DNA of 64,000 bases, taken from assembly GCF_014636865.1 (NCBI RefSeq), contig NZ_BMER01000005.1:308584-372583 (forward strand), written 5' to 3'. This DNA is from Parapedobacter pyrenivorans (GTDB lineage: Bacteria > Bacteroidota > Bacteroidia > Sphingobacteriales > Sphingobacteriaceae). Of this stretch, positions 4,196-49,450 are shown in pieces; position 1 is the stretch's first letter, and each line of letters opens with the position of its first letter. The notes under the pieces were generated by a model. The model was not told the origin of the DNA, did no database searches, and worked only from the letters and a program-made list of their open reading frames with translations. A program made the translations under genes and the position numbers.

Positions 4196-4405
4196 TTCTG
4201 GATGGTATCCGCAAAGATACGAATATCCAGTTAGGTGGAGAACTAACGGCCTCATCGCGGGTGAATTTGACAGTTTTCTCGGGCGCGAGACGTCGTTCAA
4301 ACTCTCTATATGGAGAGCTTATGTTTTATAAATGTCTAACTTATCATATAGCCGTAAATCATTCATTAACAAAGTATTTGATACACAAATATAATATATC
4401 GTATT

Positions 4406-43348: not shown

Positions 43349-44302
43349 TTACGGCATGAGCACTTGATCGATTGTATGGACGACCCCGTTTTCCGTAACC
43401 CAATCCGCTTGGGTAATGGAGGAGGGGGTTTCGTTGCCATTTCCTGCTACCATCGCACCATCATCGGTGAGGGATATACTAAGGTTTTCACCGTTTACAG
43501 TGGTCGGTGTAGCACCATCGACCAAATCCGTCGAGAATACCCATGCGGGTATGACGTGGTAGGTAAGGATCGTGGTAAGCATATCGGGGTCAGCCGCCTG
43601 AATGGCCGCGACGCTGCTGAAACCGGCATCTATAAAAGCTTGGTTGGTAGGGGCAAAGATCGTAAAGGGGCCTTCGCCCATCAGCACTTCGGCTACATTT
43701 GTGGACCCCTCACTTGCCCTGACCACCGCAGCAACCAGCATGCTGAAGTTATCATTATCCATCAATGCTTCTACGGCATTTCCCATGGGTGGCATCAACA
43801 CCTTGTTAATGACATGGATAACACCGTTGGTGGCCATAACGTCGGCCTGCAAAACGGCAGATCCATTGATCGAAGCTGACCCGTCTGACTTGCGGGTGAC
43901 GTAGGCGTCTACCTCGGCAGCGGTTTCGATGGACGTATTGGCCGCTTCAGGAATCGATGACGCGGGCACCGCTTGGCCTAATACATGGTACATCAAAATG
44001 CCGCGAACCGTCTCTGCAGGTAAGGCTTGTATGGCGGCCGTTGAATTAAGCCCTGCTGCTACGAATGCGTCATTTGTAGGGGCGAATACCGTAAACGGAC
44101 CGGACCCGGAGAGGGTCTGCACTAAACCCGCATGCGTAACTGCGGCAGCTAGCAGCGAAAAATCGTTGTCTGACGTAACGACCTCGACGATGGTCTTTTC
44201 GGGCTGCGGATCGGGATCATTGTCCTTGGTGCAGGCAACTGGTAACATGCCGACCATGGCAACTGCCATGGCCAGCTTTGGAAAGGAAATCAGTGTTTTC
44301 AT
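43349..44302 (-). CDS. Lipoprotein with two fasciclin domains
   Basis: Surface protein of 317 residues. Signal/lipobox LPVACTKD (Cys24), then two FAS1 domains: residues about 38-170 (FSLLAAAVTHAGLVQTLSGSGPFTVFAPTNDAF) and 178-317 (FSMLVAAVVRASEGSTNVAEVLMGEGPFTIFAPTNQAF), each with the YHV and NGVIHVI/NGVVHTID H2 motifs. FAS1 domains mediate adhesion or polysaccharide binding. A promoter lies at 44325-44355. A convergent terminator follows. Confidence 0.93.
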   Translation of the reverse strand: MKTLISFPKLAMAVAMVGMLPVACTKDNDPDPQPEKTIVEVVTSDNDFSLLAAAVTHAGLVQTLSGSGPFTVFAPTNDAFVAAGLNSTAAIQALPAETVRGILMYHVLGQAVPASSIPEAANTSIETAAEVDAYVTRKSDGSASINGSAVLQADVMATNGVIHVINKVLMPPMGNAVEALMDNDNFSMLVAAVVRASEGSTNVAEVLMGEGPFTIFAPTNQAFIDAGFSSVAAIQAADPDMLTTILTYHVIPAWVFSTDLVDGATPTTVNGENLSISLTDDGAMVAGNGNETPSSITQADWVTENGVVHTIDQVLMP

Positions 44303-44324: not shown

Positions 44325-44355
44325 ATAAAGTATAATAATATACCATTATATCAAA
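44325..44355 (-). promoter_or_regulatory. Promoter of fasciclin gene
   Basis: On the minus strand TTTG (44355-44352), 19 bp, TACTTTAT (44332-44325), close to consensus and well placed for ATG 44302. Confidence 0.55.
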
Positions 44356-44538
44356 GAATTGTTTGTTCCTTGAAGAAATAAGTTCAGCAATATTCTAGCG
44401 TGAAAATGCGATAAAGATGTATATTGTTGAAAAACCAATAACCGATGTGGTTTTTAAAGTGAGTGGGTTGGCGATCGTCAGTCCATAAAAAGTTTATTTA
44501 TATACTTTATTTGTGGGTGCAATTAAAACAATGCACGC

Positions 44539-45237
44539 CTAGGTTTCATCGGACGGCGTTTTTTGAAAAAGCTTAAACAAGTAGATATTGAGGAGAAAAA
44601 GGGTATAGCCGTAAACGCTGTCTTCGATCGGTATGGAGAGTATGCGGATATTGAGTATTTCTTTTGCGTTATAGTTGACGATGGGCGATTCCAGCCCGGT
44701 GCCGGTAAGCACACCGTTTACCGGTATGAAGCCCAGCATCAAAATGAGGTATACAAAGGAGGCTTTCCCAATCCACCGTGCCTTGGCGATAAGCTTTAGG
44801 TACACCAGCGCGGCAGCTGTCATCATGGCGGTAAGGGTGGTGTAGATACGGTCGTGAAAAAAAAGGACAACCATGATGCAAACCGCTATACTGAACCAAG
44901 CGATGTGAGTGCTGAACTTTTCCGCCCACTTCAGGTCGAAAAATTTATCCAAGCAGTGGTACGTAAACACGCAGGAAAAAGGAATGCAAATGAAAAAAAG
45001 CCATTCTTCAACAGGAAGCCCCAGTAGGGTGGAGCCTATTGTATAGCGGTAATCAAACCACCAAACGCCCATGTTGGTGAACCACACATCCCACAGTAGG
45101 AAAGGAGTGGCTACCAAAACTGCTGCCTTAATGAAGGCTGCGAAATGCCGGTCGAAACGGATCTTGGGATGGAAAGAAAAAATAAAGCAGATGATGATGG
45201 TAAGAAAATTGATGAGGAGGTAGGTATAAGGTGTCAT
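44539..45237 (-). CDS. crtY: Lycopene cyclase (CrtYcd-type, fused)
   Basis: Inner membrane enzyme of 232 residues that would cyclise lycopene to beta-carotene. Two repeated lycopene-cyclase domains of three helices each are visible; the first carries FDYRYTIGSTLLGLPVEEWLFFICIPFSCVFTYH and the second YNAKEILNIRILSIPIEDSVYGYTLFLLN, each with the P-x-E-(E/D) box. ATG 45237 is chosen because it overlaps the crtZ stop by 4 nt (ATGA); the frame itself extends further upstream. Last gene of the operon. Confidence 0.92.
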   Translation of the reverse strand: MTPYTYLLINFLTIIICFIFSFHPKIRFDRHFAAFIKAAVLVATPFLLWDVWFTNMGVWWFDYRYTIGSTLLGLPVEEWLFFICIPFSCVFTYHCLDKFFDLKWAEKFSTHIAWFSIAVCIMVVLFFHDRIYTTLTAMMTAAALVYLKLIAKARWIGKASFVYLILMLGFIPVNGVLTGTGLESPIVNYNAKEILNIRILSIPIEDSVYGYTLFLLNIYLFKLFQKTPSDET

Positions 45238-45692
45238 CGCTGTTTTTTCGTAAAGTACATCTTGAAATATTTGATCGGTACCCACAGAAAGCCGAAACAT
45301 TCGCCTCGTTCCTTACCGGTATGTTTGTGGTGTTGCTTGTGTGCCCTGCGGATGGCAAGCAGGTAGGGGTTTTGGGTGTTTTTTAAGAAGCTGATGCGCT
45401 GGTGGATGAAGATATCATGCACAAAAAAATAGCCCATCCCGTACAGGGTAACGCCCATGCCGATATAGAACAGGTAATTGAAGCCCTGTTGGCTGCCGAA
45501 ATACATCAGTGCGAAAGAAGGGATGGCGAAGATGATGAAGAAGTAATCGTTTTTTTCGAGATGCCCCGTGTTGCTGTGGTCGTGATGGTCGCGGTGCAAC
45601 ACCCAAAGCAAACCGTGCATCGCGTATTTGTGAATTGTCCAGGTAAGCCCTTCCATCGTTATAAAAGTAATGAGTATAATCAGTAGGTTCAT
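45234..45692 (-). CDS. crtZ: Beta-carotene hydroxylase
   Basis: Di-iron membrane hydroxylase of 152 residues that converts beta-carotene to zeaxanthin. All four histidine clusters of CrtZ are present: HKYAMH (21-26), HRDHH (33-37), HDIFIHQ and HKQHH. Helices surround them. Overlaps the neighbouring genes by 4 nt on both sides. Confidence 0.95.
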   Translation of the reverse strand: MNLLIILITFITMEGLTWTIHKYAMHGLLWVLHRDHHDHSNTGHLEKNDYFFIIFAIPSFALMYFGSQQGFNYLFYIGMGVTLYGMGYFFVHDIFIHQRISFLKNTQNPYLLAIRRAHKQHHKHTGKERGECFGFLWVPIKYFKMYFTKKQR

Positions 45693-46174
45693 GTCTCCTG
45701 TTTTTTGTTGTTAAACAGATTATCCAACACTCCGCACCGGTAATCAAAGATATGGTGGATTTTCTTCTTAACGATCCAACGATGGGCGACCTCTCCCAAT
45801 ACGCCAAACGGTAGTTCATACTCCACGGTATCTTTCATCAATACGCCTCCATCCCAGGGTAAGAATTCATGGACATGTTTCCAAAGCCGGTATGGTCCTT
45901 TCTTCTGGTAGTCCGTGAAGCTTTTGTACGGCTCTACCTGTGTGATTTCCGTTTGCCATTTCATCGGGATGCTAAACAATGGCGATACCCTGTAATCGAT
46001 GATCATCCCTTCATAAATGCCGCTTTCCGGTAAGTCCGAAATCACGGAAAACCGCATTTCCGGAGGGGTGATACGCGCGAGGTTGTGCGGCGAGGAGAAG
46101 AATTGCCAGGCGGTATCGATGCCGCAATGCAAGTATTGTGCCCAACGGAGCTGATGTGATACTGCGGTCTTCAT
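45689..46174 (-). CDS. SRPBCC-fold protein of the carotenoid operon
   Basis: Soluble protein of 161 residues with the START/polyketide-cyclase-like fold: CGIDTAWQFFSSPHNLARIT, a central groove region MIIDYRVSPLFSIPMKWQTEI, and a C-terminal helix GVLGEVAHRWIVKKKIHHIFDYRCGVLDNLF. Bacteroidota carotenoid clusters often include such a protein, whose role in binding or delivering hydrophobic intermediates is unproven. ATGA overlaps join it to crtB and crtZ. Confidence 0.85.
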   Translation of the reverse strand: MKTAVSHQLRWAQYLHCGIDTAWQFFSSPHNLARITPPEMRFSVISDLPESGIYEGMIIDYRVSPLFSIPMKWQTEITQVEPYKSFTDYQKKGPYRLWKHVHEFLPWDGGVLMKDTVEYELPFGVLGEVAHRWIVKKKIHHIFDYRCGVLDNLFNNKKQET

Positions 46175-47007
46175 GAGATGGCCATTTTATATTGGATATA
46201 ACTGGTCATCATCAACCGCAATTTTTTACGGTTGGAGATGCGGATACGCTCTTTTAGCATATGCTTTGCAGGTGTTACCTGTATTTTTTTGAATAAAGAC
46301 AGGTAGTAGCTATAGGCCAGGTAGACGCCAAACCTGGAACATAAGGGCAGCATTTTTATGCCGATCAATGCCTCGCGGAACTCGCCTTCGATTTCCTGTT
46401 CGATAGCCGATTTGATATGATCGTCAAACACCGCCATATCCACATCGGGAAAGTAATTGCGGCCGAGGATCCGGTAATCCTCTTGCAGGTCTCGCAGGAA
46501 ATTTACTTTTTGGAATACAGAGCCGAGTTTCATTGCGTACGGTCTCAACGTTTCATGCGCTGCTTTGTCTCCTTCAACAAATACATGAAGACACATCAGT
46601 CCCACTACTTCTGCCGAGCCCAGGATATATTCCTGATACCGTTCCCGGTTAAAATCTACCGGTTGTAGGTCCATCTCCATACTTTTAAGGAATTGGCTGA
46701 TCAGCTTTCGGTCTATGCCGTAGCTGTGGACGGTTTGCTGGAAGGATTGTATAATCGGGTTGAATGAGATGCCTTCTTCCAATGCCTGGTGGGTCTGCTC
46801 CCTAAACCGCCGGAGCAGCGTAGCCCTATCAAAACCGTGGAAACTATCCACGATTTCATCCGCCAGCCTTACATAGCCATAAATGGCATAGATAGCCGGC
46901 CGTATGGATGGGTGCAGGGCCAGGATACCAAGCGAAAAACTGGTGCTGTATTTTTCGGTGGTGGATTTACTTACCTGATGGGATAACTCGTCATACAGCT
47001 TTTTCAT
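46171..47007 (-). CDS. crtB: Phytoene synthase
   Basis: Condenses two geranylgeranyl diphosphates into phytoene; 278 residues. Both Asp-rich motifs are present: DEIVD (50-54) and DLQEDYRILGRNYFP (173-187). SAEVVGLMCL and the conserved YAMKLGSVFQKVNFLRD block confirm the family. It overlaps crtI by 17 nt. No crtE is in the window. Confidence 0.96.
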   Translation of the reverse strand: MKKLYDELSHQVSKSTTEKYSTSFSLGILALHPSIRPAIYAIYGYVRLADEIVDSFHGFDRATLLRRFREQTHQALEEGISFNPIIQSFQQTVHSYGIDRKLISQFLKSMEMDLQPVDFNRERYQEYILGSAEVVGLMCLHVFVEGDKAAHETLRPYAMKLGSVFQKVNFLRDLQEDYRILGRNYFPDVDMAVFDDHIKSAIEQEIEGEFREALIGIKMLPLCSRFGVYLAYSYYLSLFKKIQVTPAKHMLKERIRISNRKKLRLMMTSYIQYKMAIS

Positions 47008-48484
47008 AACGGTGTAATTTCAGTTTATTCACTTCAGTCGCTGCAATGTTTCCGGAAATGATGGAAGGTGGCACGCCAGGACCGGGAACCGTAAGCTGGC
47101 CGGTATAAAAGAGATTGGCTAGCTTTCTGTTTTTTATGGACGGCTTCCACACCGCCGTCTGTCGCAAGGTATTCGCCAACCCGTAGGCATTGCCCCGATA
47201 GGCATTGTAGTCTTGCAGGAAATCACTGATGCAGTAGCTTTTTTTATAGTCGATTTGCTTGGCTAAATCGGAAGCGCCCGTATGTTTTTCCAAGCGGTGG
47301 ATCATTTCCGACAGATAGCGTTCGCGTATCGGTTCGCTATCGTGGATCCCAGTAGCCAAAGGCATGAGTAAAAACACATTCTCATGGTGCTCAGGAGCGA
47401 CACTTGGGTCGGTCTTGGATGGGCAGCAGGCGTAGAAAAGCGGCTTTTCCGGCCATTTGCGATTAATATAGATATCGTTGATATGAGTGTCCAGATCATG
47501 CTCAAAAAAGAGCGTGTGGTGTTTCAGGTTTGGGATTTTTACGTTAAAACCCAAGTAATAAATCAGGCAGGATGGCGCAAAGGTGCGACTTGACCAGTAT
47601 CGGTCGTCGTAGTTCCTGTACTTTTTTTCCAGTAATGTTTCGGTATGGTGGTAATCCGAAGAGGCAACCACGGCATCAAAACGGTGAGCTTGCCCATTGA
47701 TGACCAACTCCGTGACCATACCACGGTCGGCACGGATATGTTCCACGGTGTGGTTGAAGTAGAACCGGGCACCGAGCTGCTCCGATATGGCTTTCATGGC
47801 TTTCACCACTTCATGAAACCCGCCCATGGGATACCAAGTGCCCAGTGCGTACCCACCGTAAGCCATGAAACTATACATGGCTGGAATGTCCTTCGGCGAA
47901 GCGCCCAGAAAGATAACCGGGAATTCCATAAGGGCAATCAACCTGGGATCGGAGAAATATTTTTTTACATAAGACCGGAAACTTGATAGCAAATCCAATT
48001 TGAGCGCACTGGCGACAATCTTCGGCGATACGAATTCCCACCAGGTATGGCAGGGTTTATTCACAAACTCGAGCATACTTACCTCATATTTATATTTGGC
48101 TGCCATCATAAAGGCGTCCAACCGGTTACCGGCTCCACGCTCGATAGTTTCAAACATTGCCCGTAGTTGAGGATAAGTGCCCGGTACGGATAACGTGCTG
48201 TCGGGAAAAATCATATCGAATTGAGGGTCAAGCGCAGTTAGCTCATAGAAATCAGTGGCTCCGTGTCCGAAATCGCGAAAAAAACGGTCAATGATATCAG
48301 GCATCCAATACCAGCTTGGTCCCATGTCAAACGTATATCCATTTTCAGTAATAAATTGCCTGGCGCGACCGCCAGCACTGCTGTTCTTTTCGAAAACATG
48401 AACCAAATGACCTTCTTTGGCCAAATAGGCGGCAGCGGAAAGACCGGATATTCCCGAGCCTATGATGGCAGTCTTTTTAGTCAT
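46991..48484 (-). CDS. crtI: Phytoene desaturase
   Basis: FAD-dependent desaturase of 497 residues converting phytoene to lycopene. The N-terminal dinucleotide fold is IIGSGISGLSAAAYLAKEGHLVHVFEKNSSAGGRARQF, followed by FDMGPSWYWMP. The C-terminal signature NLFYTGQLTVPGPGVPPSIISGNIAA is the CrtI bacterial motif. First gene of the five-gene operon, with a promoter at 48554-48584. Confidence 0.97.
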   Translation of the reverse strand: MTKKTAIIGSGISGLSAAAYLAKEGHLVHVFEKNSSAGGRARQFITENGYTFDMGPSWYWMPDIIDRFFRDFGHGATDFYELTALDPQFDMIFPDSTLSVPGTYPQLRAMFETIERGAGNRLDAFMMAAKYKYEVSMLEFVNKPCHTWWEFVSPKIVASALKLDLLSSFRSYVKKYFSDPRLIALMEFPVIFLGASPKDIPAMYSFMAYGGYALGTWYPMGGFHEVVKAMKAISEQLGARFYFNHTVEHIRADRGMVTELVINGQAHRFDAVVASSDYHHTETLLEKKYRNYDDRYWSSRTFAPSCLIYYLGFNVKIPNLKHHTLFFEHDLDTHINDIYINRKWPEKPLFYACCPSKTDPSVAPEHHENVFLLMPLATGIHDSEPIRERYLSEMIHRLEKHTGASDLAKQIDYKKSYCISDFLQDYNAYRGNAYGLANTLRQTAVWKPSIKNRKLANLFYTGQLTVPGPGVPPSIISGNIAATEVNKLKLHRYEKAV

Positions 48485-48553
48485 AATTAATCTTTTACCG
48501 TATAAGGGATTGCCTTGCTTGCAGAGTTTCCCATATTTTACAATAATGGTTTA

Positions 48554-48584
48554 CAAATATACTTTATTTCATGATTTGCAACAA
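48554..48584 (-). promoter_or_regulatory. Promoter of the carotenoid operon
   Basis: On the minus strand TTG (48584-48582), 20 bp, then TATATTTG (48561-48554). The box lies in GTATATTTGTAAACCA (48562-48547), which recurs with one change at the facing regulator's promoter. Confidence 0.65.
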
Positions 48585-48731
48585 GGTATAAGCCAATTAT
48601 TGTGGAGTAAAAGTATTTTATTATACCAATTAAATTTTTTCACTAATATAGTTTGCTGACGAACTATGGTTCAGTAATGCACTTATTTTAAGGTGAGATG
48701 CGTAAATCCACTAGATATGCAGTTAATTAAT

Positions 48732-48747
48732 GTATTTTTGTAAACCA
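48732..48747 (+). promoter_or_regulatory. Regulator promoter box sharing a 16-bp motif with the crt promoter
   Basis: GTATTTTTGTAAACCA contains the TATTTTTG box (48733-48740) for the MarR-type gene and differs by one base from 48562-48547 on the other strand. The upstream TTTG element is not clear here. A shared operator for the regulator is a reasonable inference. Confidence 0.5.
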
Positions 48748-48775: not shown

Positions 48776-49450
48776 ATGACGAATTATACATTGATAAAAG
48801 ACACCATTAAGCTGCTGGAGTCGTTTGAAGCGGCGAGGCTAACGAAAGATAATTACACCAACGACATCAACGGCCTCAAGCAGTGGATCGCTGATGATGC
48901 CGGCACGCATGTGCCTTTGTCGGAACCAGATTGGGAAGGTAAGGAAGACGGCAGAAGCGCGGAAAGCGTGATTAACACGCTCATCGTGCACATGAATAGG
49001 TATGCAAAAGCGTATTCCAAATCTGCCATATATGATTCTGACTTTTCAACGCAGGAGGATTTTATTTACCTCATCAACCTAAAGGCCTTTGGTGCAATGA
49101 CCAAAATGGAATTGATAAAAAAGAATATCCAGGACAAGCCCGTTGGTATGCAAATAATCAACAGGCTTATCAAGAATGGGTGGGTATTACAGAAGGATTC
49201 GGAAACAGATAAGCGAAGTAAGATCATACAGATTACAGCGGAAGGATTGACTGCCCTACAACAACAGATGGGAAAAATTCGGCGTGCTACGGAATTAGTT
49301 ACCGGCAACCTGACCCGTTCCGAAAAAATGGAACTTATACGATTACTGAAGAAATTGGAAGACTTCCACCATCGGATATTCGCTCAAAACATGGACAGCG
49401 CTGAATTATTGGAACGGGTAGCAAATGAATATCTGCCTTTAAAACCATGA
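48776..49450 (+). CDS. MarR-type regulator facing the carotenoid operon
   Basis: DNA-binding protein of 224 residues. The winged HTH spans about 75-190: FIYLINLKAFGAMTKMELIKKN then PVGMQIINRLIKNGWVLQKDSETDKRSKIIQITAEGLTAL, the MarR helix-turn-helix and wing (the DKRSK wing tip is standard). The first 65 residues are an extra N-terminal part. It is transcribed away from crtI, 291 bp apart, with a repeated 16-bp motif at both promoters. Probable control of carotenoid synthesis; not proven. Confidence 0.85.
   Translation: MTNYTLIKDTIKLLESFEAARLTKDNYTNDINGLKQWIADDAGTHVPLSEPDWEGKEDGRSAESVINTLIVHMNRYAKAYSKSAIYDSDFSTQEDFIYLINLKAFGAMTKMELIKKNIQDKPVGMQIINRLIKNGWVLQKDSETDKRSKIIQITAEGLTALQQQMGKIRRATELVTGNLTRSEKMELIRLLKKLEDFHHRIFAQNMDSAELLERVANEYLPLKP

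Follow-up and report, generated by a model that had tools for sequence, protein, structure and literature searches.

The two facing promoters between crtI and marR in Parapedobacter pyrenivorans carry 16-bp motifs that comparison with related genomes identifies as imperfect copies of an 18-bp palindrome, TAGTATA-N4-TATACTA. We consider it highly probable that these motifs are the autoregulated operators of a CrtR-like, MarR-type repressor encoded at 48776, which would govern a photoprotection regulon. The palindrome itself, its conservation, its dependence on the presence of MarR and the genes that it precedes all emerge from sequence comparison. Since the same palindrome stands before carotenoid, light-repair and fasciclin genes across Bacteroidota, a MarR-type protein probably switches them together.

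The carotenoid locus and the neighbouring MarR-fold regulator

In the 64-kb window, by which we mean the whole stretch of DNA analysed, the crt genes run leftward (crtI, crtB, the 161-aa gene, the crtZ-like gene and the lycopene cyclase gene, in that order) and are followed by a fasciclin gene, and marR runs rightward:

46991-48484, minus strand: crtI (NF058655, 650 bits, cut-off 640)
46171-47007, minus strand: crtB, phytoene/squalene synthase (PF00494)
45689-46174, minus strand: 161-aa protein with no Pfam or NCBIfam match, present in many crt operons of relatives
45234-45692, minus strand: crtZ-like protein of 152 aa, named by eye and gene order, with no family match
44539-45300, minus strand: lycopene cyclase, crtY-type (PF18916, TIGR03462)
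43349-44302, minus strand: two-domain fasciclin (FAS1) protein of 317 aa (PF02469, two stretches)
48776-49450, plus strand: marR, MarR-fold regulator of 224 aa (PF13463, over its cut-off)

Among family models, the marR product exceeds the cut-off of PF13463 and falls below those of MarR_2 (just) and BilQ. Its predicted structure (pLDDT 82.0) places it in the MarR winged-helix fold, which spans about residues 51-206 of the model; against E. coli MarR (3vod_A) the fold is matched across residues 51-196, with a VIA Z of 15.9 and an rmsd of 3.0 for 135 aligned residues, and a second structural comparison covered residues 52-204. Ahead of the fold lies a conserved N-terminal helical extension, modelled as two extra helices at residues 3-23 and 31-45. 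In non-phototrophs, LitR and CarH are described as controlling genes for carotenoids and other light responses (PMC5401885, PMC6739363), but they are MerR-family proteins with B12, whereas the window protein has a MarR fold; its Pfam and NCBIfam matches include no MerR or B12 domain, so it does not belong to the LitR/CarH group.

Of the 201 genomes examined in the family, 87 have a relative of marR (E 1e-10 or better), and a further genome scan yielded 78 loci in Olivibacter, Sphingobacterium, Chryseobacterium, Flavobacterium, Chitinophaga and others. Together these gave 107 loci (29 + 78), of which 97 were left once identical upstream regions had been removed. Among these 97, crtI is a same-strand neighbour of marR in 76, shares its strand at a distance in 2, is opposite in none and was not seen in 19, with 29 of the original loci spanning only 1.5 kb on each side. 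Divergent genes, as in the window, are therefore unusual; the commonest arrangement in relatives puts marR ahead of crtI in a single operon, where two or three sites lie about three helical turns apart.

An 18-bp palindrome behind the paired motifs

The initial annotation had placed a 16-bp motif at both facing promoters, and its coordinates are correct: GTATATTTGTAAACCA lies on the minus strand (48562-48547) and GTATTTTTGTAAACCA on the plus strand (48732-48747). Exact matches to GTATWTTTGTAAACCA occur at 2 places in the window and at none in 100 dinucleotide shuffles, and these 2 are also the only ones across the 5.93-Mb genome; the sole one-mismatch place elsewhere, C1:2547148, falls within a coding frame and was dropped as chance. 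Among simulated intergenic sequences (first-order Markov), 2 of 400 contained a 16-mer pair with at most one mismatch. Each motif also encloses, as first described, a box matching TAnnTTTG, the Bacteroidota -7 consensus: TATATTTG on the crtI side and TATTTTTG on the marR side. The 16-bp unit did not survive, because the conserved element is 18 bp long and palindromic. TAAACCA does extend beyond the box, as had been noted, but it is better read as the degenerate right half of the palindrome, the left half being the one that overlaps the -7 box.

This revision comes from a motif search in related genomes, a check that the initial annotation had itself suggested. De novo discovery in 85 non-redundant marR upstream regions, with the window left out, returned TAGTATATTTgTATACTA, an 18-bp near-palindrome spanning the TAnnTTTG box, with an LLR of 579 versus 55-62 in five mononucleotide shuffles. 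A strictly palindromic model scores lower than this asymmetric one (483), as expected because the -7 box overlaps the site. The palindrome recurs in held-out regions, reaching at least 10 bits in 42 of 43 and 35 of 42 in a split-half test versus about 2% of shuffled sequences, and all ten marR genes taken from outside the family have an upstream site scoring 15 bits or more, though one of the ten repeats a training region. Across 73 loci, 106 sites fall within 10,950 bases upstream of marR and 42 within 911,971 bases elsewhere. The best site stays below 10 bits in 6 of the 85 training regions (L052, L059, L099, L119, L126 and L127); in L059, L099, L119 and L127 the sites precede a fasciclin or crtI gene instead of marR. 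In L126, from Faecalibacter, a marR relative is present and no such site lies just upstream of it.

At a threshold of 8 bits, 49 of 73 neighbouring pairs in the 85 regions are spaced by 31-33 bp, and most of the remaining pairs lie near whole helical turns. Flavobacterium supellecticarium carries two marR-crtI units in one region (L055:1-8175), the second with three sites at 31-bp steps (2721, 2752, 2783). In Chryseobacterium, single 13-15-bit sites stand by a Crp-like gene (named by eye) near marR (L116:8385, L129:8402).

Scanning the window with a matrix built without it, and taking the five best distinct places in the 64 kb, gave the following predicted operators:

48547-48564, minus strand: operator 1, crtI promoter, AAGTATATTTGTAAACCA, 24.4 bits, best in the window
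48611-48628, plus strand: operator 2, mid-intergenic, AAGTATTTTATTATACCA, 18.3 bits
48730-48747, plus strand: operator 3, marR promoter, ATGTATTTTTGTAAACCA, 16.1 bits, weakest of the five
44328-44345, minus strand: operator 4, fasciclin gene, TGGTATATTATTATACTT, 21.0 bits, 25 bp before the ATG
44490-44507, plus strand: operator 5, gap between crtY and the fasciclin gene, AAGTTTATTTATATACTT, 21.5 bits, 187 bp before the fasciclin ATG

Operator 1 lies 62 bp before the crtI ATG, contains the -7 box TATATTTG and agrees with the consensus at 15 of 18 positions; operator 3 lies 28 bp before the marR ATG, contains TATTTTTG and agrees at 9 of 14 half-site positions. The three top intergenic scores (24.4, 18.3 and 16.1 bits) exceed those of all 2000 simulations, and two weak intergenic places of 5.8 bits, at 48649 and 48667, are not counted as operators. 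Sixth in the window is a minus-strand place at 4379-4396, far from the crt locus, with 15.5 bits versus 16.1 for operator 3; every place of lower rank has less than 12 bits. Operators 1 and 2 are separated by 64 bp, about six helical turns, and this spacing (48547-48611) is the only one in the window that fits, those of 119 and 162 bp not being near whole turns. Searching the 258 bp ahead of the fasciclin gene gave no TAnnTTTG box.

A degenerate pattern for genome-wide counting was modelled on the five window sites themselves, and its genome count is therefore not independent; with one mismatch it gives 17+13 matches versus 15+11 in a backwards control, hardly above it. Its further exact matches, C2:246537 and C6:44001, lie at or in unrelated frames and were treated as chance, the latter reaching 18.4 bits with the operator matrix.

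Dependence on MarR and the extent of the proposed regulon

Sites follow MarR across genomes. The 201 genomes contain 17 fasciclin orthologues (E below 1e-80). Upstream sites are present for 9 of the 10 that share a genome with a close MarR, versus 0 of the 7 whose genomes have none or only a weak MarR relative (hypergeometric, 4e-4); in the tenth MarR-bearing case, G046, the fasciclin gene sits inside a marR-crtI-fasciclin-crtB operon. None of 13 fasciclin paralogues has a site at 10 bits, and G470, a genome of the class-level sample with the fasciclin gene and no close MarR, lacks one ahead of the gene and has a 9.7-bit site on the opposite side. Upstream of crtI, none of 20 MarR-less genomes has a site of at least 9 bits (best 8.3), and one of them, G146, belongs to genus g16, home of most MarR-bearing genomes. 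These contrasts are not fully independent, because the MarR-less genomes cluster in a few genera. Stop codons interrupt the matched stretch in several crtI matches of genus g16 (G053, G189, G016). In a clade whose MarR is about 50% identical, 15 of 20 MarR regions have a site and 5 have none, and crtI is mostly without one (1 of 16 with).

An operator shared by the two promoters and read by the MarR-type protein had been proposed at the outset. That proposal is supported by the palindrome that precedes marR homologues even when the window is excluded, and by its presence at fasciclin and crt promoters in genomes with a close MarR and its absence there in genomes without one. Its reach covers the crt and marR promoters as suggested, but appears wider than claimed, taking in the fasciclin gene here and photolyase, ferrochelatase and GTP cyclohydrolase genes in relatives. 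Where marR stands away from crtI, its neighbours include photolyase with ferrochelatase (L083, L098), with lipocalin (L079), with fasciclin (L119) or with a NUDIX protein (L130). In L098, L123 and L089 photolyase has sites immediately ahead of it (the genes of L123 and L089 being named by eye), and in L274, from the clade with the 50% identical MarR, a site heads GTP cyclohydrolase I, SDR and marR. In L098, L123 and L089, ferrochelatase shares a MarR-type operon with photolyase. The two photolyase loci of the window's own genome have no site.

With two predicted operators upstream, the fasciclin gene at 43349-44302 is a probable member of the same regulon. Its product has a lipoprotein-like N-terminus (by eye) and a predicted structure with pLDDT 89.9, and both the PF02469 matches and the model place it among FAS1 proteins. 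Fasciclin lipoprotein genes are linked to marR and crt genes in several genera, and lie inside the crt operon in L064 and L071.

A probable CrtR-like repressor of photoprotection genes

We propose that a MarR dimer binds the 18-bp palindrome, and that at the crtI and marR promoters the operator covers the -7 box and the start region; because of this position, the bound protein would block RNA polymerase and shut both the crt operon and marR. Light itself, a signal generated by light or an isoprenoid precursor may then lift the repression. The nearest known counterpart is CrtR of Corynebacterium glutamicum, which is reported to repress crtE and itself in a light-dependent manner (PMC6739363, PMC5401885), with a 52-bp footprint over both divergent promoters and a mutant that is pigmented without light (PMC6739363); a footprint of that length suggests more than one site. 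The likeness, drawn from layout and published descriptions rather than sequence, lies in a MarR-type gene divergent from, and next to, the crt genes, with a predicted site over the crt promoter and its own. An N-terminal extension in the window protein also recalls the 72 residues described before the CrtR HTH (PMC5401885). The two systems differ in that CrtR is described as actinobacterial, with a required TTAA motif, one known locus and, according to one group, no inverted repeats, whereas the window system has an 18-bp palindrome at several promoters and predicted targets that include the fasciclin gene and, in relatives, photolyase.

The presence of the MarR family at photolyase-ferrochelatase and GTP-cyclohydrolase operons points to a likely photo-oxidative or light-response repressor. 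The link to light, which is likely, draws on these target genes and, by analogy, on a crt cluster of Chryseobacterium lacus that is reported to have this gene order and to be light-induced without car or lit genes, and for which the authors proposed a new light-induced regulator (PMC7064467). In the titles and abstract openings of the open-licence literature, we recognised no MarR-type carotenoid regulator in Bacteroidota.

It is possible, if rather unlikely, that MarR binds the palindrome as an activator, or controls crt genes only and senses a precursor such as GGPP instead of light, as the reported release of C. glutamicum CrtR by isoprenoid pyrophosphates might suggest; an operator placed on the -7 box, however, fits repression, the photolyase, ferrochelatase and GTP cyclohydrolase targets of relatives exceed isoprenoid flux, and the Chryseobacterium cluster is reported to respond to light. 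We regard it as very improbable that the palindrome serves another regulator that merely co-occurs with MarR, which would then act elsewhere: co-occurrence cannot prove which protein binds, but marR accompanies the sites throughout, in Sphingobacterium, Chryseobacterium, Flavobacterium, Chitinophaga and other loci, while the remaining genes vary, and palindromes of 16-20 bp are reported as typical of MarR proteins (PMC5401885). Slimmer still is the chance that the likeness reflects promoter sequence only, both genes using a -7 element with a common discriminator that no regulator reads, for although both motifs contain TAnnTTTG and the matrix centre is asymmetric (TTTG), as promoter overlap would give, TATACTA on the right is the mirror image of the left half, further copies stand 31-33 bp upstream and off the -7 position, sites vanish from the same genes where MarR is absent, and the five strongest places of the 64 kb are all at linked genes.

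The fasciclin protein is a candidate carotenoid carrier. The microalgal carotenoid-binding protein AstaP, reportedly inducible by photo-oxidative stress (PMC7477208), shares with it the FAS1 fold, a likeness of fold alone; the window protein differs in having two FAS1 domains and a lipoprotein-like start. Its model matches 8c18, with TGFBI and periostin matching better, and another FAS1 protein, SynAstaP, is reported not to have bound carotenoid (PMC10147662).

We raise, tentatively and as a doubtful possibility, that in Bacteroidota without LitR/CarH the missing regulator of light or photo-oxidative responses is a MarR repressor acting through helically phased arrays of operators. It would switch carotenoids, photolyase, ferrochelatase and pterin synthesis in concert with a surface fasciclin lipoprotein, and the fasciclin protein would be an AstaP-type bacterial carotenoid carrier. 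Light-induced carotenoid synthesis without a known regulator is reported in at least one of the Bacteroidota (PMC7064467), and, given a single protein, a defined 18-bp operator and a list of targets, the question can be put directly to experiment in many culturable species. Ferrochelatase in a photolyase operon would take away a photosensitiser while light damage is repaired, and a regulon linking the fasciclin lipoprotein to carotenoids would give a clue to the role of fasciclin.
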